A stretch of 53,261 bases of DNA, taken from positions 1 to 53,261 of the IMG/VR virus record IMGVR_UViG_3300047457_000194; one strand, given 5' to 3'. Shown here in pieces: positions 1 to 53,228 of the stretch (its first letter is position 1; every line of letters begins with the position of its first letter). The stretch comes from a virus. The notes below the pieces were generated by a model. It was not told the DNA's origin, ran no database searches, and saw only the letters and a program-made list of their open reading frames with translations. The position numbers and the translations under genes were made by a program.

Positions 1-1516
1 GCAGTACACGCAGAAGCAGATCGACACGATCATCGCGAACGCGAAGAAGCTGCCTTATCACGAGCAGGTGGAATTGTACCAGCTGCTGGAGCAGTACGAA
101 AAGCACCTCAAGATCCAGAAGTGCCAGAACAATTTTATGGACTTCGTGAAGGAGATGTGGCCTGCATTTATCGGCGGCAGGCATCACTCCATCATGGCCG
201 ATGCGTTTGAGCGGGTCGCCAACGGGACGTGCAAGCGCCTGATCATCAACATGGGTCCTCGGCACACGAAGAGCGAGTTTAGCTCCTACCTGCTACCGGC
301 GTGGTTCCTCGGGAAGAATCCGCACAAGAAGATCATTCAGACGGCCCACACAGCAGAGTTGGCTGTTGGATTCGGTAGAAAGGTCAGGAACTTGGTTGGT
401 AGCAGTCATTACCAATCAGTGTTCTCTGGAGTCTCCTTGTCGTCTGATTCAAAGGCAGCAGGACGGTGGAATACCAATAAGGGTGGTGACTACTTTGCTA
501 TCGGCGTGGGTGGCGCTGTTACTGGTAAGGGCGCAGATCTCCTCATCATCGACGATCCACACAGTGAGCAAGAAGCCGCTATAGCTGCTACAAATCCAGA
601 CATATACGATGGTGTCTATGAGTGGTACACGTCTGGTCCTCGCCAGCGTCTGCAACCGGGTGGTGCCATCGTTATTGTAATGACGCGCTGGTCCAAGAGA
701 GATCTGTGCGGTCAGATCCTGAAAGCCTCAGCGCAGAGGGACGGGACGGACGAGTGGGAAGTGATTGAGTTCCCAGCGATCATGCCCTCTGGGAATCCGC
801 TGTGGCCTGAGTTCTGGTCGCTGGAGGAATTGGAGAAGATCAAGGCGGAACTCCCCGTCTCCAAGTGGAACGCGCAGTATCAGCAGAACCCAACCTCAGA
901 AGAGGGCGCTCTCGTGAAGCGCGAGTGGTGGAAGATCTGGGATAGAGAGGACCCGCCGCAGTGCGAGTACATCATCCAGAGTTGGGACACGGCGCTGACC
1001 AAGGGAACCCGGTCGGACTACTCGGCTTGCACGACATGGGGCGTCTTCTACGACAAGGACTCTGACGGCAAGAAGCGAACGAACATCATTCTCCTCAATG
1101 CGTTTCAGGACAAGCTGGAGTTCCCTGAACTGAAGCAGAAAGCTCTTGAGGAGTACAAGTACTGGAAGCCAGACACCTGCATCATCGAAGCAAAGGCGGC
1201 AGGCGCTCCGCTCGTGTACGAGATGCGGAAGATGGGGATCCCAATACAGGATTACACTCCATCGAGAGGGAATGACAAGATAGTCAGAGTTAATGCTGTT
1301 AGCGATATATTTGCCTCAGGCTTTGTCTATGCTCCTCCATTGCGCTGGGCAGATGAAGTTATCGAGCAGTTCGCCTCGTTTCCAAACTCAGACCACGACG
1401 ATCTTGTTGACAGTTCTACCCAGGCTCTGTTGAGATTTAGACAGGGCGGTTTTATCTCAACGCAGTCTGATGAAGATGAAGCGCCAATTCAAAGAAAGAA
1501 AGCAGATTACTACTGA
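1..1516 (+). CDS. terL: Terminase large subunit (5' end wraps round the window edge)
   Basis: ATP-driven DNA packaging motor and nuclease that docks on the portal. The frame is open to the left edge, and the last two bases of the window plus base 1 make an in-frame ATG, giving about 505 residues; another in-frame ATG lies at 53251. Counting residues from the GTG at 68: an atypical Walker A (MGPRHTKSE, 62-70), a Walker B (LLIIDDPHSE, 158-167), and an RNase H-fold nuclease domain beginning at the SWDTAL stretch with Asp 307, followed by IIEAK and a late HDDLVD acidic motif. The nuclease and ATPase motifs are complete. The small subunit ends 22-31 bp upstream on the circular map. The family is certain; the exact start is not. 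Confidence 0.95.
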   Translation, partial: QYTQKQIDTIIANAKKLPYHEQVELYQLLEQYEKHLKIQKCQNNFMDFVKEMWPAFIGGRHHSIMADAFERVANGTCKRLIINMGPRHTKSEFSSYLLPAWFLGKNPHKKIIQTAHTAELAVGFGRKVRNLVGSSHYQSVFSGVSLSSDSKAAGRWNTNKGGDYFAIGVGGAVTGKGADLLIIDDPHSEQEAAIAATNPDIYDGVYEWYTSGPRQRLQPGGAIVIVMTRWSKRDLCGQILKASAQRDGTDEWEVIEFPAIMPSGNPLWPEFWSLEELEKIKAELPVSKWNAQYQQNPTSEEGALVKREWWKIWDREDPPQCEYIIQSWDTALTKGTRSDYSACTTWGVFYDKDSDGKKRTNIILLNAFQDKLEFPELKQKALEEYKYWKPDTCIIEAKAAGAPLVYEMRKMGIPIQDYTPSRGNDKIVRVNAVSDIFASGFVYAPPLRWADEVIEQFASFPNSDHDDLVDSSTQALLRFRQGGFISTQSDEDEAPIQRKKADYY

Positions 1517-29129: not shown

Positions 29130-32100
29130 ATGGCGCTTAAAACGATCTACCTAGAGGGCTTCGGCTTGATGGATGTTCCTGCTGAACTCACTGGCAAGGA
29201 ACTTTCAGTCTATGCCTCTAGGGAGGCTCGGAAGCGAAGGGCGGAAGAGTCTGCCGCTGAGGTAACCCAGCAAGCGCAGAAGAAGCCTGAGCCTTCCACC
29301 ATGCAGCAGGCTGCTGGCTTTGCTGCTGGTCTCCCTGCTGGCCTTGCCTCTGGGCTGATTGGGTCTACCCTTGAGGGCATTGGTGGCCTGACTGGCATCC
29401 GCCCGGTGGAAGAAGCTGGCGCTTCTTTCAACGAGTGGGTTCAGGAGAAGTTGAAGCAGGCAGTTGGCGAAGAAGCCGCTGCTTCTGGCGCGTCCCAGGT
29501 GGGTCAGACTATCGGCGGCATTGCTTCGTTCTTTACTCCTGGAGTTGCTGCCAAGGTGCTTGGTGGTGCTGGGAAGCTGGCTAAGGTCGCTCCCTATCTG
29601 AGTACCGCGATGTCCGGTATTCAGGGCGCTGGCGAACAAGTCGAGCGGATGCGGCAGCAGGAAGCCGAGGGTGATCAGATCGATCCCTTGATGCGCCAGT
29701 TGTATGCTGCTGGCGCGGGTGCCGGGACCGCGTTGCTGGAAAACATACCCATCAGCGGACTCGCCAAGTATACTCCGCTCAAGCGTGTGCTGGGTGATAT
29801 CCCAGTCTCCGCTGAGGCTGGTGCGTTTACGAGGGCGATGGATGCGGGTGCCGGGACTATCCTTGGACGGGCGCTTGGGACTGGCGCTGGCGAAGCTGCC
29901 ACTGAAGTAAGCCAGAACGCATTGCAGAACATCATCGAACGCCAGTACAACGAACAGCGCGGCATACTTGAAGGTAGCACTGAGTCTGCTGTGGGTGGAT
30001 TCCTTGCTGGCGCGGCGCTTCAGGGTGGCGCTGATCTGTACCGCGATGTCTACCTGAATAGGAAGAAGTTTGAGGGAGATGTCAAGGCGCTTCGAGGGCA
30101 GCTTTCCGAAGAGCAACTCCCACTCCTTCCGGCTGGAAAGAGAAAAGCGGTTCAGATTCGCGGAAAAGATATCTCCACAGTATTGGGAGAGGAGGATATC
30201 GCAGAGGCAGAAGCTGCTTTCTCTAAGGTCGCTTCTCCGCAAGGAGTCCCGCTCCTTCCTCCTGGCAAGTTTGCTTCTGATGAAGAGGCGCGGAGAAAGA
30301 TTGATGAAGAGATCGAGGCCGCAAAGGTATATGGCCCGACTCCAGACTTATCCTACGCTACACCTGAAGCAATGGCGCGTATCGAGGAGCTCAGGGCTAA
30401 GGAGCAAGCGGACAACGAAGCGATAATCAAGCAGCGTGAACAGGACATCGCTGCGCTGCCGGATTTCCCATCCTACCTTCCTGATCCAAACGTAACGCCG
30501 ATCAGCGAGTGGCCGAAGCCTCAAGTCAAATTGTTTGACCAGTACCTGAGCAAGTTCTCTCCAGAGCAGGCCAAGCTGATTGAGAGCTTCAGCCCTGAAG
30601 AGATGGATTCGTTTATTGAGCGAGGCGTGAAGCGCAAGACCGAATCCGAACAGCAACTGCAAAAGATCCGAGAAGAGCAGGCGGCTCGTATTGCTGCTTC
30701 CCGTAGGGCGGATATCGAGCAGGCTGATGCGATCACTCTCTCGCGGTTCGCAGAGGACTATCAAAAACAGGAAGCCGAAGCGGCTAGGGCAAAGCGCGAA
30801 GAGGAGCTATCTAAGGCCGCTGCCGGGAGGGCTGAAGAGGCTGCGATCAAAAACCTGTATGCGCGTGAGGAGTTCGACAAGTTCGTTGCCGACCGAATCG
30901 CAGCAAAGAGCAAGATCGAAGAAAGCCAGAGGGTTGCTGGTGAACTGGCGAAAACGAAGTTCGGTAAGCCCCTCGGTGAGTTGAAAGACTCTCAGAAGAT
31001 CCAACTCGCTAGTGAGATCGACGCAATCTCAAAGGAGGCTTCGTTCAGAACTGAAGTCAACAAAGAGATTCCAGAGCTTGGAGACCCCATCTACAAGCTG
31101 CAAAACCGGGTATCTGTAAACTTCTTCGGCACTCAGTACAAGAACCTCCCAGAAGCGAAGCAGGGGATAGTGAACTCTGCTATTGAACGAGGAGAAGGGA
31201 GAACCGTACTTGGCGAAGAGCTTCTGGAAGAGAGAGATTTTGACAAGTACAAGCGGCTCTATAATCGTGACGACTTCCGCGCCGTAAACAAAGAGATGCG
31301 CTCTTTCGTGCGAGACGAGAGTGGGTTTATCCCGGTCACAAAGGACTCCCTGTATTCCGCTGTTAAGTCTGTATCCGAAGACCCTACCAGTACTATCAAG
31401 CCAAATAGAATGGCATCAAACGCCATGTTCAAGCACATGCTTGATCGTGGTGTTATTGTGGACATTGACGGAAAGACCTACCTTAACGAGGAAGCGACTG
31501 GCCCCCGCTATCAGCTTCCTATAAGCAACAATCCAAACATCGAGAGCCAGCAGAGCGCCTTCAAAGCCGAGGAAGCGAAGGTCACGGTTGGTCCAAAAAT
31601 GAGGGATGCTCTTGAGCGGCGCGGACTGTCCGATGTGTTCACCCTGGGTATCGTTGAAAAGATCGAAGATACCCCTGCTCTTGGCAAGTACCTGAATCGC
31701 GTTATTCAGATCGCCGCCGCGCCTGAGGGGAAGGTCCGATCTCTCGACGAGATGATCTCCTCGATGGATCACGAGATCGTCCACGGCATGCGTGCCGCTG
31801 GGCTGTTCACGGACGCCGAGTGGAACCTGCTGACCACTGATTTCAACGCCAACCTGCTAGACGACAAGCAGAAGGAAGCGTACACGCGGATCTACAAAGC
31901 CCAGGGGATGAGCGACCAAGCCATCCAAGAGGCCTTGAACGAGGAAGCTGTCGCTATGAAAGCGGCGCAACTCAACAACGTGGACCCCAAGCGTTTGGAT
32001 CCGAAGTCCTTGTCGCTGATCAATAAGGTCCGCTTCTACCTGGAGTTCGGGCGCAACTCTGCTGCCCTTGGATACAACAGCGCCGAAGACGTGCTGGCTG

Positions 32101-38538: not shown

Positions 38539-39011
38539 CCTCTCTCCTTCTCAATTGCTGTTATCCCTACGCCAATTGCCGCCCACACATCCTTCGACGC
38601 CCTGTACAGCATCCCGCCCTTCTTCGTTACGCCGACTCCATACATAGACTCGTACTTGTCGATGATGGCCTGCCGGATATTGGCATCCTTGGCGCGTGGG
38701 TTCCCGCACAAGTGCAGCTTTACCTCGCGCCGGAATACTCTCCCCACTCTCTCGTGCTGATCCATGGATACCTCCATGAACCTGCCGACCCACACGCATG
38801 TCTCAAACACACTGGCACCAACCGCCATGCCGTACGATGCGATCATCTCGATGCGTATGTCGTGGCAAGAAAGCTGTCTGCATAGGCTGCGTATCGTGTA
38901 GTTGTCTGCCTTCTGGAAGGACATGACTCTCAGGTCTTTTCGATGAAGGATTGCGTATGCTGATTCTATTGGGCCTGGATCAATTGCTAAAACCGTTGAT
39001 GCGTATGGCAT
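38535..39011 (-). CDS. RuvC-like Holliday junction nuclease
   Basis: A 158-residue RNase H-fold nuclease. The opening strand carries LAIDPGPIESAYA with Asp11; Glu55 follows in RIEMIASYG; Asp109 and Asp141 (KDVWAAIGVGITA) complete a DEDD-type acidic set. This is the usual layout of phage RuvC-type resolvases that trim branched DNA before packaging. It overlaps the recombinase gene by 32 bp in a recombination operon. Confidence 0.85.
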   Translation of the reverse strand: MPYASTVLAIDPGPIESAYAILHRKDLRVMSFQKADNYTIRSLCRQLSCHDIRIEMIASYGMAVGASVFETCVWVGRFMEVSMDQHERVGRVFRREVKLHLCGNPRAKDANIRQAIIDKYESMYGVGVTKKGGMLYRASKDVWAAIGVGITAIEKERG

Positions 39012-39819
39012 TCACTGTCTCCTTTGTGAACTCAGGTGTGAACTTGGCGTACACCTTCTCTGTTATAGCACTACTGGAGTGACCCAGCAGTTTGCTGACT
39101 CTCAGTATTGGCACACCAGAGCTAACTAGGTTCGTTGCCACGCTGTGTCGAATGATGTGCGGTGTGATCGTGATTGGCAGACCAGCGGCGACCATCAACT
39201 TGCGCCACTGGTAGTTCAGCGACATCGGCCTCCTGCCATTCTGGGCGACGACCAGCTTATCGCCATCCAGAACTTGATGCTTCTTCAGGTATTCGTACAA
39301 GTCGTCGTTGATTGAAACATCGGCCACACACTTCTGCCTGGACTTCCTGTTGGCGCTGAAGTAGATGCAGCGACCGTCCAGGTCAATGTCCCTCCAGCGG
39401 AGGGAGATGACTGCGCCGGATCTCTGCCCAGTATTGCAGAGCAGCATGCAGTACATCTCCATCCACTGTCCGAACTTGAAAGCATGGTTTAGCACACTGC
39501 CCATCTGATCCCATGTGATCCACTGCTTTCTCGGCGCGGACTCCTTAGGCAGTTCGATGTGCGGCTTGGTCTTTATCTGCCCACACTTCCATGCGGTATT
39601 GATAGCAGCGACCAGGGCCTGAAGATCTCGCCGGATCGTAGAGGACGACAGCCTCGCCAACCCCTTGGTGGCCTCCCGAATAACGGAAGGCCTGAGGTTG
39701 TCTACGAGGATGCCGTCGAGTGCTTTCAGGTGCCGATGTGCTAGCTCCTGTCTTTTCCAGAAGAGAATGTCGTCGCTACATTCTCTCCTGTACAACTCCC
39801 AAACATCTCCCACTAGCAT
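38980..39819 (-). CDS. Tyrosine recombinase (integrase or resolvase)
   Basis: A 279-residue site-specific recombinase. The catalytic set is complete: Arg133 (GQRSGAVISLRW), Lys159/163 (NRKSRQK), His221 and Arg224 (HIIRHSVATN), His247 (LLGHSSSAI) and Tyr257 (EKVYAKF). A core-binding domain fills residues 1-95; no separate arm-binding domain is evident. Could integrate the phage or resolve dimers of a circular episome. No attP core was found by eye. Confidence 0.9.
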   Translation of the reverse strand: MLVGDVWELYRRECSDDILFWKRQELAHRHLKALDGILVDNLRPSVIREATKGLARLSSSTIRRDLQALVAAINTAWKCGQIKTKPHIELPKESAPRKQWITWDQMGSVLNHAFKFGQWMEMYCMLLCNTGQRSGAVISLRWRDIDLDGRCIYFSANRKSRQKCVADVSINDDLYEYLKKHQVLDGDKLVVAQNGRRPMSLNYQWRKLMVAAGLPITITPHIIRHSVATNLVSSGVPILRVSKLLGHSSSAITEKVYAKFTPEFTKETVNAIRINGFSN

Positions 39820-44700: not shown

Positions 44701-45873
44701 TTAGACCGTCTTGATCTTTACGACAGTGCCGAACGGCACGTTGGTGTTGTTGTAGTCGCCGTACTGCATCCAGATGACAGGCACGCCGGGGTCAGGACCG
44801 AAGTCGTAGCAGGCCATGTCCGTCAGATAGACGAAGCACTTGGGCTTGATGTCTTTGTCCTGCGCGTACTGAAACACCGGGGAGAACCGGGTGCCACCGG
44901 ACTGGACCTTCTGCCCGTCGAGTTCCATCGGGCGACCGGGCTTGTACTGGTCGTGCTTGTACACGTCATAGTCGCAGTAGAGAACATGCGTCTCCTCGGG
45001 GCGAACCTTCGTAAGGAAGTGGTTGATCATCCCCAGGAAGTTCTCCAACACATCATGCGGCACAGAACCGGAGGTATCCATGCCGACGACCAGCTTGCCA
45101 ACGCCATCCCGCAGGACGGAAGGCAGGTACATGTCCTGGCCCATGAAGCGGCGCGAGGGCTTCTGCCATGTGTAGTCGCGGGGGTAGATGGGTTGCATGA
45201 ACTTGGCGAATAGGTGGCGGTAGTCCTCCTCGGGTTCACGCGCCTTGGCGAGGAGATCCTTGAGCGCACCGGGTAGCTTGCCGCAGAACTTGGCGTGGCT
45301 CTCAGCCTGCGCCACCTTGACCTGGATCTCTTCGGCCAGCGCCGCCTTCTCCTCCTTCGTCATGCCATCGGTCGGCAGGACATCGCCCTGCGAGAAGTCT
45401 TTGTCGCCGCCCGGTCCGTTGCCCTGACCACTGCCGGATCCGCCCTTGCGCTTCTGCTCAGGCAGCATGTCGTAGATCTGTTCCCACGACAAGCCCTTGT
45501 ACCTGGGATCGATCAGGCAGTCCTTTGGAAGCTGGTATCCACACTCATGGATCAACAGATTGATGGCGTAATCCATCGCGATGTTGGCCTGCATGCGGTT
45601 GCGGTCGCCCAGGCGCAGCGGGTGCATCAGCGCAACGTGCATGATCTCGTGGATGGAGACGGCCTTAACTTCTTCGGCGCTCATCTCAGCCACGAACTTA
45701 GGGTTGTAGTAGACGGCCTTGCCATCGGTCGCCATGGTGGGGCAGCGTTCGTCAGCCACCCAGTTCATGCGGAGGGCGAGAGAGCCGAAGAACGGCTCCT
45801 GCCCAATCGCCATGCGGACATTCTGCCGCACGATCTTCGATGCCGCTTCGGCTGTGATAGTCACGGTGTTCAT
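44701..45873 (-). CDS. Metallopeptidase-like plus VWA protein (DUF2201-like)
   Basis: A 390-residue protein. The N-terminal domain has HEIMH (75-79) followed by His84 and Arg87 (HVALMHPLR), the zincin-like pattern of DUF2201-type proteins. A Gly-rich linker (about 143-157) joins a helical middle to a C-terminal VWA domain with a complete MIDAS: DTSGS (266-270), Thr328 (SGGTRF) and Asp352 (YLTDM). Such proteins work with MoxR AAA+ ATPases to remodel protein targets. It is in an operon with one here. Confidence 0.85.
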   Translation of the reverse strand: MNTVTITAEAASKIVRQNVRMAIGQEPFFGSLALRMNWVADERCPTMATDGKAVYYNPKFVAEMSAEEVKAVSIHEIMHVALMHPLRLGDRNRMQANIAMDYAINLLIHECGYQLPKDCLIDPRYKGLSWEQIYDMLPEQKRKGGSGSGQGNGPGGDKDFSQGDVLPTDGMTKEEKAALAEEIQVKVAQAESHAKFCGKLPGALKDLLAKAREPEEDYRHLFAKFMQPIYPRDYTWQKPSRRFMGQDMYLPSVLRDGVGKLVVGMDTSGSVPHDVLENFLGMINHFLTKVRPEETHVLYCDYDVYKHDQYKPGRPMELDGQKVQSGGTRFSPVFQYAQDKDIKPKCFVYLTDMACYDFGPDPGVPVIWMQYGDYNNTNVPFGTVVKIKTV

Positions 45874-46807: not shown

Positions 46808-46822
46808 GTCCAAACTTTGGAC
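46808..46822. promoter_or_regulatory. 15-bp palindrome (copy 1)
   Basis: GTCCAAACTTTGGAC, perfect 7-bp arms around C, between the MoxR stop and the DUF3150-like gene. Confidence 0.7.
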
Positions 46823-46831
46823 AGTTGGGAT

Positions 46832-46846
46832 GTCTAGAAACTAGAC
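46832..46846. promoter_or_regulatory. Related palindrome, GTCTAG type
   Basis: GTCTAGAAACTAGAC, 6-bp perfect arms, centre 24 bp from the neighbouring palindrome. It extends as GGG-TGTCTAG and CTAGACA-CCC with one mismatch. Confidence 0.6.
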
Positions 46847-46870: not shown

Positions 46871-47899
46871 TTAGAACATCAGCTTCGCGTAGGTGGGCTT
46901 GCTGATCATGTCGAGGATGGGCTTCGACGTGACGGCGGCAGTGTCGCGCTTGCACACATCCTTGAGGAACAAGCAGCCGTACTCCGGGGCCAGCCGCTGC
47001 ATGTAGGCGGCGATGGGCTTACTGTTCTGCGGGTTCCAGTTCGACGACAGGTAGATCGCCGTAGCGAAGGACGCCGACAGGTCGGTCGGGACAGCCACGC
47101 CACCAGGATCGGCGCAGATCGCGGAGATCTGGGGCAGCGACTGCCACATCCGCAGGAAGCCAAGGAACTCCAAGCCAGTGCCTTGCCCAATGCAACCCTG
47201 GATCATCTCGCCAGCGATCTCTCGGTCGGGGTCCTGGTCAAGGATGCGGGAGAGGAACTCGACAGAGCGAGGGGTGCAGAACGCGAAGTCATTCTTGTGC
47301 GGCTGCTGCACAAGCAGGTCCTTGCGGTAGGCGAAGAACGCCCGGAGTTCGGGGCGGATGGACTTGGTGATCGGCTTCGCAGGGACGACCTGCGCCGTCA
47401 CATTGCTGTCGCCAGCGGACGCCCACTCCAACCACGAGTCGAACGCCGACTCCAACTGGATGTGGAGGAAGCGGTTCATGAGCGGGGCCGGGGGCTGGTT
47501 GTAGTTGCCGCCGTCCTGGGCGCGATTGCCCGTGGCGCAGATGTACGCGCCGTCAGGCATCCGGTAGTCGCCAAGCTGCCGCTCCAGGACCAGCTGATAG
47601 AGGGCGCACTGCACCGACATCGGGGCGTCAGGCAGTTCCTCGATAGCGACGAGGGTCGCGCCGTTCTTGGGTAGCCAGTTCGGCGTGGCGCGGTAGCAGA
47701 CGCCGTCCTTGATATAGGGGATGCCCATATCCACCGGGTCCATCATCGTCGGGCGCACGTCAACGTGTTCCCGCTTGAGGATCGAGGCGACCTTGCGAAT
47801 GATCGAGGACTTGCCAATCCCGGCCTGCCCCCACACCCAGACGGGTACCTCGGCATTGATCGCGACCTGAAGCGCCTTCATGAAGTTCTGTGCGTACAT
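46871..47899 (-). CDS. MoxR-family AAA+ ATPase
   Basis: A 342-residue ATPase. Walker A GQAGIGKS (24-31), Walker B LVAIEE (83-88), sensor 1 ICATGN (Asn125), and an arginine-finger-like PLMNRF (Arg143) are all seen. MoxR-type ATPases form hexamers that use VWA-protein adaptors to open or activate targets. A promoter (47945-47974) lies 45 bp upstream and AAGGAGACTACG precedes the ATG. It is the first gene of the operon. Confidence 0.9.
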   Translation of the reverse strand: MYAQNFMKALQVAINAEVPVWVWGQAGIGKSSIIRKVASILKREHVDVRPTMMDPVDMGIPYIKDGVCYRATPNWLPKNGATLVAIEELPDAPMSVQCALYQLVLERQLGDYRMPDGAYICATGNRAQDGGNYNQPPAPLMNRFLHIQLESAFDSWLEWASAGDSNVTAQVVPAKPITKSIRPELRAFFAYRKDLLVQQPHKNDFAFCTPRSVEFLSRILDQDPDREIAGEMIQGCIGQGTGLEFLGFLRMWQSLPQISAICADPGGVAVPTDLSASFATAIYLSSNWNPQNSKPIAAYMQRLAPEYGCLFLKDVCKRDTAAVTSKPILDMISKPTYAKLMF

Positions 47900-51798: not shown

Positions 51799-52410
51799 TT
51801 ACTCCCCCATCATCTCCCGCATAATCGCGAGGAAGTCAGCTTCGTCCTTAGCCTTGCCGAGAGCGGTCTTATACTTCGTGCGCCAATCGGTGGCGGACTC
51901 GGTGGTGGTATCGTCGTTGGAGTCATCCTCCGGAGTAGAGTCCAAATTTTGGACCGATTCAACCTTGGGTTTGTCGAGGCCGAGGGCCGCTACCACCTCG
52001 TCGCGTACGCGAGCGTTATCAATCGTTCCCTTGGCGCGGCGGGTGATCAAGCTAGCGATTGTCTCTTTATTGACCTCAGCATCGCCCTTGGATTTGGCGA
52101 GCCGGGCAATCTCTTTGCAGCTGGAGTACCCACACTTGATGAGTTCTTCTTCCGTGGTGTTGATCCACAGAAGAGCGTTACCCAAGTTCGCCATATCGTG
52201 GAACTGGGATTTCGAGATGTTCACGTCCTGCGCATCCAAAAACGATTCGATGTTCTTGAAGCCGAGTGTTTTCCACTGCTTATGTGCCTTGATTTGGTAC
52301 AGCGCCGTCGACATGACAATGAAGAGGCGGTGAGATTCGCGACTGGCGCGGATGACGAGTTGCAGGTTTTCCTGCGCAGAGCGGGTGGCGGTGATGTTGA
52401 TTTTGTGCAT
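51799..52410 (-). CDS. Helical DNA-binding-like protein (possible regulator)
   Basis: A 203-residue protein. The N-terminal 110 residues are helical with a helix-turn-helix-like part (LGFKNIESFLDAQDVNISKS), then an acidic linker (about 150-175) and a charged tail. It has no CTP-binding motif of true ParB. One copy of the 15-bp palindrome lies in the linker-coding part. AAAGGATCAACTACC precedes the ATG. As first gene of the early operon and nearest neighbour of parS, it is a candidate regulator or partition accessory. Confidence 0.55.
   Translation of the reverse strand: MHKINITATRSAQENLQLVIRASRESHRLFIVMSTALYQIKAHKQWKTLGFKNIESFLDAQDVNISKSQFHDMANLGNALLWINTTEEELIKCGYSSCKEIARLAKSKGDAEVNKETIASLITRRAKGTIDNARVRDEVVAALGLDKPKVESVQNLDSTPEDDSNDDTTTESATDWRTKYKTALGKAKDEADFLAIMREMMGE
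51940..51954. promoter_or_regulatory. 15-bp palindrome inside a gene (copy 5)
   Basis: GTCCAAATTTTGGAC within the acidic linker coding region of the 51799-52410 gene. Confidence 0.65.
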
Positions 52411-52595
52411 GGTAGTTGATCCTTTACTTGGGTGGTGTTGTTCAGGTGCTTCAAAGCCCCTGAGTCAACTATCCTAGCGAACGGTGAACACGGAGTGCAA
52501 CTATGCGAAACCGTGTGCTTTCAATGAGATGGAGATCATTAAGGAATTTTAATAAATGACTATTGTGAATGGAGTTTAATGTTGGTGGGTGGATT
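52411..52595. other. Noncoding region upstream of the early operon
   Basis: No gene seen. It holds a weak inverted repeat (TCAGG/CCTGA) and, on the minus strand, possible but poor promoter boxes (TTGCAC, 18 bp, TAGGAT). Confidence 0.4.
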
Positions 52596-52610
52596 GTCCA
52601 AAGTTTGGAC
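52596..52610. promoter_or_regulatory. 15-bp palindrome (copy 6)
   Basis: GTCCAAAGTTTGGAC, perfect arms around G. It is 16 bp before the parS site and upstream of both the terminase unit and the early operon. Confidence 0.7.
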
Positions 52611-52626
52611 GGATGTTTGTGGGGAG

Positions 52627-52642
52627 TGTTCCACGTGGAACA
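52627..52642. promoter_or_regulatory. parS-like ParB-binding site
   Basis: TGTTCCACGTGGAACA is a perfect 16-bp palindrome that equals the bacterial chromosomal parS consensus (TGTTnCACGTGnAACA). The symmetry extends to 18 bp (52626-52643). It lies 10 bp before the terminase small subunit start. Only one copy was found. Confidence 0.85.
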
Positions 52643-52652
52643 CAATAGGGAT

Positions 52653-53228
52653 ATGGGACGCAGGAAACCATCGGATACGATTGTCGAACTAGAGAAGGGT
52701 ATGACGCCTAAGCAGGTGAAGCTTGCTAGAGCATTGGCGGCGGGGGGGATACCTAAGGTCGAAGCGTATCGGCAGGTATACGGGTGGAGAGGTAAGAGTG
52801 CGAACGCGCTACAGGTGGCCGCGACGAAGGCGTGTCAAAACGATAAGGTTTCAATAATGGCAACAGCTTTAAGGGACGCTGAAACCGCGCGATTGTGGGA
52901 AGACAAGGACCGATTCAGAAATTGGATCATGCAGGGGATCACGGACACGGCCAACAACACCGAATCCGACATCACACGATTAAAGGCGCTGGAACTCGCA
53001 GGGAAAACGAGATTCGCCTCAGTGTTCGAGGAACCACAAGCAAACGAAGCGAACGCAGCCGTAGCGGGTTCCCTGATAGACCTGATTGGCGCACGTCTCC
53101 AGTCGCTACTGGGAGTTGCAACGCCTACACTGGGCGATTCAGAGGCAATCGACACCACGTTCGACCCCGTGCCACCTGATACCACCACGCCTACCGACAC
53201 CCCCACCGGGGGCGGGGAGGGGGAGTAG
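52653..53228 (+). CDS. terS: Terminase small subunit
   Basis: A 191-residue DNA-recognition part of the packaging motor. The N-terminal domain is the HTH-type small terminase (MTPKQVKLARALAAGGIPKV, AYRQVYGWRGKSANALQVAA), with helical oligomerisation part (RLKALELAGKTR) and Pro/Thr/Gly tail. The ATG at 52653 is chosen since an upstream ATG at 52569 would translate through the palindrome and parS; no strong Shine-Dalgarno is seen for either. The large subunit follows across the window edge. Confidence 0.85.
   Translation: MGRRKPSDTIVELEKGMTPKQVKLARALAAGGIPKVEAYRQVYGWRGKSANALQVAATKACQNDKVSIMATALRDAETARLWEDKDRFRNWIMQGITDTANNTESDITRLKALELAGKTRFASVFEEPQANEANAAVAGSLIDLIGARLQSLLGVATPTLGDSEAIDTTFDPVPPDTTTPTDTPTGGGEGE

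Follow-up and report, generated by a model that had tools for sequence, protein, structure and literature searches.

The parS-ParB pair is the best-studied bacterial centromere: once loaded, a ParB clamp can travel kilobases along the DNA, bring in SMC and follow ParA. When parS is found in phages it is normally discussed as part of a phage-encoded ParABS. Filamentous phages use host XerCD at dif. Phage ParABS systems with their own ParB are already known, since the P1 prophage and extrachromosomal mycobacteriophage prophages carry their own ParA/ParB together with their own parS (PMC7157519), and Staphylococcus phage Lacachita has a ParB-like gene and no ParA (PMC10286716). We found no description of ParB-less phages with a host-type parS in the open-access literature searched.

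The locus described here shares with the bacterial chromosomal ParABS/parS system (ParB-CTP clamp, Spo0J) the same 16-bp site, its noncoding setting and a tolerance of change only at the N positions of the degenerate form TGTTNCACGTGNAACA and at the outermost bases. It differs in that a phage carries it, that neither parA nor parB accompanies it, and that it adjoins terminase genes instead of a replication origin. Like the P1 and mycobacteriophage systems, it places a parS on phage DNA, but here the parS is that of a host chromosome and comes without its partner genes. Like Lacachita, it amounts to an incomplete partition system on a phage, but in reverse, with a site and no gene. Like the phages that use dif, it would present a short host-type site that recruits a host chromosome-maintenance protein, although the site is a recombination site there and a putative clamp-loading centromere here. 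The window, i.e., the whole 53,261-bp stretch of viral DNA that was analyzed, contains the following features.

68-1516, plus strand: terminase large subunit (terL), 482 aa, called from PHROG 38 (E 1.8e-105) and Terminase_6C.
38980-39819, minus strand: tyrosine recombinase/integrase, 279 aa, called from PF00589 (E 3.8e-22) and PHROG 1.
51799-52410, minus strand: divergent 203-aa gene, product predicted to be all-alpha and without a ParB domain; it tracks the GTCCAAA palindrome and not parS.
52596-52610, no strand: GTCCAAAGTTTGGAC palindrome belonging to a phage operator-like motif, distinct from parS, that has six perfect copies; this copy lies 16 bp upstream of parS.
52626-52643, no strand: perfect 18-bp palindrome made up of TGTTCCACGTGGAACA and a flanking G/C, called from a scan of the window and from conservation in L002-L005 and L079-L136.
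52653-53228, plus strand: terS-position gene, 191 aa, called from its place just before terL and from homology among relatives.

The initial annotation had reported a perfect 18-bp palindrome 10 bp before the terS start codon, and its coordinates were confirmed. The 16-mer TGTTCCACGTGGAACA occupies positions 52627-52642 with zero mismatches and is the sole match in the window at ≤3 mismatches, giving a parS copy number of one; it fits TGTTNCACGTGNAACA perfectly as well as the strict form. The 18-bp palindrome is the longest even-centred palindrome in the window, the runner-up being 14 bp, and the spacer between parS and the terS ATG at 52653 is 10 bases (52643-52652). A second-order Markov model predicts 2.2e-5 copies of exact TGTTCCACGTGGAACA and 1.4e-4 copies of TGTTNCACGTGNAACA in the window. 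An alternative in-frame ATG at 52569, upstream of the terS start, would enclose parS in the ORF. This N-terminal extension was rejected because the homologous stretch of the relative L004 differs by one base in length and the frame is not kept; since the extension is not a conserved reading frame, parS is best read as noncoding. The terS-position gene gave no profile match and owes its name to its position and its homology among relatives. The record had been opened between terS and terL, and terS directly precedes terL once the record is closed.

Six-frame searches of the window returned no match to ParB_N (PF02195) or HTH_ParB (PF17762) at E≤1, which bears out the claim that no ParB is encoded, and no match to ParA-type AAA_31 (PF13614) at E≤0.01. 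Searches with the same three profiles were empty for the tested parS-bearing relatives and matched the control genomes. Neither the ParB gene nor the ParA-type ATPase of a complete ParABS was found on the replicon.

A search with the terS protein yielded a set of 13 viral contigs. A perfect TGTTCCACGTGGAACA was present in 4/4 of L002-L005, and the other nine had no match at ≤1 mismatch. In L004, parS lies at the homologous place before terS; in L002 and L005 it lies ~820 and ~430 bp upstream of terS, respectively, near the start of the divergent gene and in a block absent from the window. L003 has two sites, a perfect distal copy and a terS-proximal copy in which the outermost T is replaced by C; the window and the remaining parS-bearing relatives have one each. 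Common descent of one sequence does not explain this pattern, because the perfect 16-mer occurs at two non-homologous positions of one intergenic region.

A wider comparison was made with 80 terL relatives from IMG/VR, 51 of which, together with four MAG loci, hold at least 1.2 kb of upstream sequence. In a second clade, with terL ~72% identical, a parS-type site was found 0.55-1.4 kb upstream of terL in 9/9 members. Eight of these loci match TGTTNCACGTGNAACA, 554-1412 bp upstream of terL, and the ninth (L100) deviates solely at the outermost base; by simple counting, ~0.0003 TGTTNCACGTGNAACA matches are expected in the upstream space searched. The nine loci form one group in the terL tree (support 82/52, weak at the base) that includes no member without the site, and the presence and absence of parS on the tree requires 2 changes vs. 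9.4 in shuffles. Most of the second-clade sites sit between the terS-position gene (208-220 aa) and terL. Their forms, TGTTCCACGTGAAACA, TGTTTCACGTGGAACA, TGTTTCACGTGAAACA and GGTTTCACGTGAAACA, vary at positions 5/12 and 1/16 alone, which we take to be the positions where parS tolerates change (those given as N in TGTTNCACGTGNAACA, and the base at either end). All four alignments made, covering the close relatives and the second clade, had 12/12 core columns invariant, and invariant flank columns numbered 0/60 upstream in clade B1 and 4/40 downstream in clade B2. A core that is invariant amid turned-over flanks, and conserved in relatives, implies selection on the site. Conservation in related phages had been set beforehand as a check on the annotation, and it held in both groups; the assignment as a chromosomal parS also stood, with an exact TGTTCCACGTGGAACA in the window and variation among relatives confined to parS-tolerated positions. 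Thus, a parS-type identity is supported by sequence and by the pattern of variation. In addition, Pelagibacter phage HTVC027P (terL 56% identical) carries CGTTTCACGTGAAACA less than 1 kb from its terS.

A terL search of GTDB genomes returned four scattered MAG contigs only, pointing to no single host. A partial terL, 80% identical to that of the window, was observed in a 1.1-Mb contig labelled as a Dehalococcoidia MAG chromosome, CP070693.1 (L296); it would be either a prophage remnant or an assembly join.

Taken as a whole, the comparison shows a perfect noncoding parS, conserved in a manner implying selection, in a genome without detectable ParB or ParA. We consider it likely that this phage has an orphan parS of the chromosomal type, at which ParB-CTP clamps of the host are loaded onto phage DNA. 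Host ParB would be its natural partner, as the initial annotation had proposed. As at the host origin, the host's own ParB would recognize the phage parS, load as a CTP-gated clamp and slide over the adjoining DNA. More speculatively, the phage might then be treated like the host origin region, with SMC/condensin loading and ParA-driven positioning of the circular or replicating genome, and could benefit while it persists as a carrier-state phage or prophage, while it replicates and is packaged, or both. The location beside the terminase genes may simply be where noncoding DNA is available in the group, and regulation of terS would not be required. Among the possible consequences for the phage, positioning or condensin recruitment would be the first choice, because one site per genome suffices, and titration a strong second, more apt for phages that have several sites; terminase control appears weaker, because the distance and placement of the site with respect to terS change among relatives.

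Some observations count against the loading of host ParB at an orphan parS. The window has a single copy, and the site is patchy, being absent from L009, L076, L077 and most terL relatives. The integrase suggests a temperate phage and bears on a possible role of parS in the prophage state; once integrated at a distance from the origin, the parS would act as a centromere in the wrong place. Integrase genes were also found in the parS-less relatives G009 and G011 and none was found in the 62-kb parS-bearing clade-B record G019. Since integrase and parS presence do not track each other across the group, parS does not simply replace integration.

Sites of this type were also found well beyond the group. 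In IMG/VR, the exact 16-mer occurred in at least 120 stretches, whereas a scrambled palindrome, TGTCTCACGTGAGACA, occurred in 10. The 16-mer sites tend to fall outside long ORFs, with 57/116 in ORFs of at least 100 aa vs. 79% of random positions. Queries of phage records with 18-mers matched 23 and 41 records when the CC..GG form was used and 198 when the TT..AA form was used, counts that include many near-duplicates and are not independent events; each of two scrambled control palindromes gave 0 matches in the phage records. Pseudomonas phages made up most of the CC..GG matches, the others including phages of Alcaligenes and Stenotrophomonas and some microviruses. Most of the TT..AA matches were phages of Microbacterium, Listeria, Gordonia, Arthrobacter, Bacillus and Lactobacillus. 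The parS-bearing records come mostly from hosts that have ParB, among them Pseudomonas, Gordonia, Listeria and Bacillus. Neither of the two complete CC..GG lists contained an Escherichia or Salmonella phage, and Escherichia and Salmonella are not known to have a chromosomal ParB. Ten Klebsiella phage records, mainly RaK2-like jumbo phages, did match, and because these matches fall inside coding genes where annotated, some occurrences are coincidental.

Several unrelated phages carry multiple sites. With 1 mismatch allowed, Pseudomonas phage SYP has 6 and ventosus 5. Bacillus phage vB_BcoS-136 (L299) has 4 perfect parS within 1 kb (record positions 29256-30261), with no ParB_N match and only a sub-threshold HTH_ParB match. 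The 6.2-kb inovirus bajarodino virus 3 (L297, PQ006097.1) has six perfect TGTTTCACGTGAAACA sites and no ParB_N match. Three sites each were found in Lpa804 and DSS3P8, and two in a chicken microvirus. The Pseudomonas putida phage vB_PpuM-Amme-3 has a parS at 60431. ParB_N was absent from KPP25, QDWS535, ventosus, SYP and 11/14 further records; Microbacterium phage Crisis and Stenotrophomonas phage BUCTxx99 encode their own ParB_N protein, and DSS3P8 gave a sub-threshold match. On balance, we lean towards the view that many phages of ParB-bearing bacteria (tailed phages, inoviruses and microviruses) have adopted the strategy of carrying a host-type parS but no ParB; they would hijack the host ParB-CTP clamp, SMC loading and ParA positioning, or sabotage segregation by titration. 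The variant would depend on the kind of host, with CC..GG in phages of Pseudomonas and TT..AA in those of Gram-positive bacteria, and the site should be absent where hosts lack ParB. If an orphan host-type parS is indeed selected in many ParB-less phages, then contact with the segregation and condensin machinery of the host would be routine for phages. This could be relevant to how phage genomes are positioned and packaged, to carrier states, to ParB titration and to SMC-based defence.

The alternative that fares best is a decoy, in which multiplying phage genomes titrate ParB (and SMC) off the host origin, halting segregation or freeing the phage from the chromosome machinery. A parS alone would suffice for this and no ParB is needed; the 3-6 sites per genome in several unrelated phages, some of them apparently lytic, suit titration, as does the lack of an integrase in G019. 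However, the low copy number in the window and its relatives (one each, two in L003) is modest for titration unless genome copy number is high, and we regard a decoy as possible but doubtful for this phage.

Local transcription control is improbable. Here, ParB would bind 10 bp before terS, spread into the genes on either side and so silence or delay the terminase or the divergent early gene. The site does abut the terS start in the window, L004 and L003, close to operator-like palindromes, and the distal site of clade A is upstream of the divergent gene. Against this, no gene position is fixed: some sites are terS-proximal, others lie 430-820 bp upstream of terS, and others separate the terS-position gene from terL. 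The site is also single, and the operators are a separate motif. The suggestion that parS gates the terminase transcript was not supported as a general role, the site of relatives adjoining a different gene.

That separate motif, GTCCAAAnTTTGGAC, occurs in six perfect copies in the window, at 46808, 50097, 50899, 51432, 51940 and 52596, mostly within the minus-strand gene cluster; 0.19 are expected even at ≤2 mismatches, and the versions in relatives have a spacer of 0 or 1. A phage repressor operator would be expected to recur at several promoters; parS is single in the window, and the operator-like motif that recurs is GTCCAAAnTTTGGAC. The GTCCAAAnTTTGGAC copies are likely operators of a phage regulator, possibly the product of the 203-aa gene, which is found together with GTCCAAA(n)TTTGGAC palindromes. 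A second operator-like palindrome, GTCTAGAATCTAGAC, and its variants were observed at 46832 and 50081 beside the GTCCAAA palindrome, and are more numerous in L002, L003 and L005.

Because parS lies among these operator-like palindromes and adjoins terS, it could be an operator or pac site bound by a phage protein (the 203-aa neighbour, TerS or another regulator), its likeness to parS being convergence. We think this quite unlikely. Homologues of the 203-aa protein occur in parS-less L009 (81% identical), L006, L011 and L012, and searches of this gene with profiles found no family match and no ParB domain; its AlphaFold model is all-helical (pLDDT 79) and had no significant PDB match in Foldseek. 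The proposal that this neighbour is a divergent ParB-like binder was therefore rejected on distribution, predicted fold and Foldseek; it tracks GTCCAAAnTTTGGAC. The TerS of L002 is 90% identical while the site is 820 bp away, and the same motif recurs in phages with unrelated genes.

A palindrome can also form a stem, and an RNA hairpin or terminator in the terS leader, instead of a DNA site, was considered. Look-alikes after a capsid-position gene in L080, L099, L117, L123, L139 and L293 have a conserved stem around a CACGTG centre that differs from one to the next, and seem to be of this kind. However, the window sequence folds no better than shuffles (z -0.74) and has no T-run on either side, the sole terminator-like site called near parS being a different palindrome at 52594, and clade B versions are asymmetric (TGTTCCACGTGAAACA), so that the stem is broken and parS kept. 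The hairpin reading was rejected on these grounds and is very improbable. The look-alikes themselves, an inverted repeat TGTTCC-NNNN-GGAACA with an extended stem (L080:11395, L099:11783, L117:18733, L123:9398, L139:18575, L293:19216), come after the 302-312-aa capsid-position gene and its terminator-like sequence, 8.6-9.6 kb downstream of terL. They were not counted as parS, because the stem is conserved and the CACGTG centre is not, and the repeat looks like a hairpin or another operator.

Chance or simple inheritance of a functionless sequence, for which the patchy presence among relatives might speak, is contradicted by conservation (close relatives have the site at two unlinked positions, and its core is invariant in turned-over flanks), by the minute number of copies expected and by the strong excess over scrambled controls, and we give it next to no weight.

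Elsewhere in the window, positions 44701-45873 encode a DUF2201 protein (metallopeptidase-like and VWA-like) near an AAA ATPase gene at 46871-47899; its PHROG label, 'HNH endonuclease', is at odds with the Pfam match to DUF2201.
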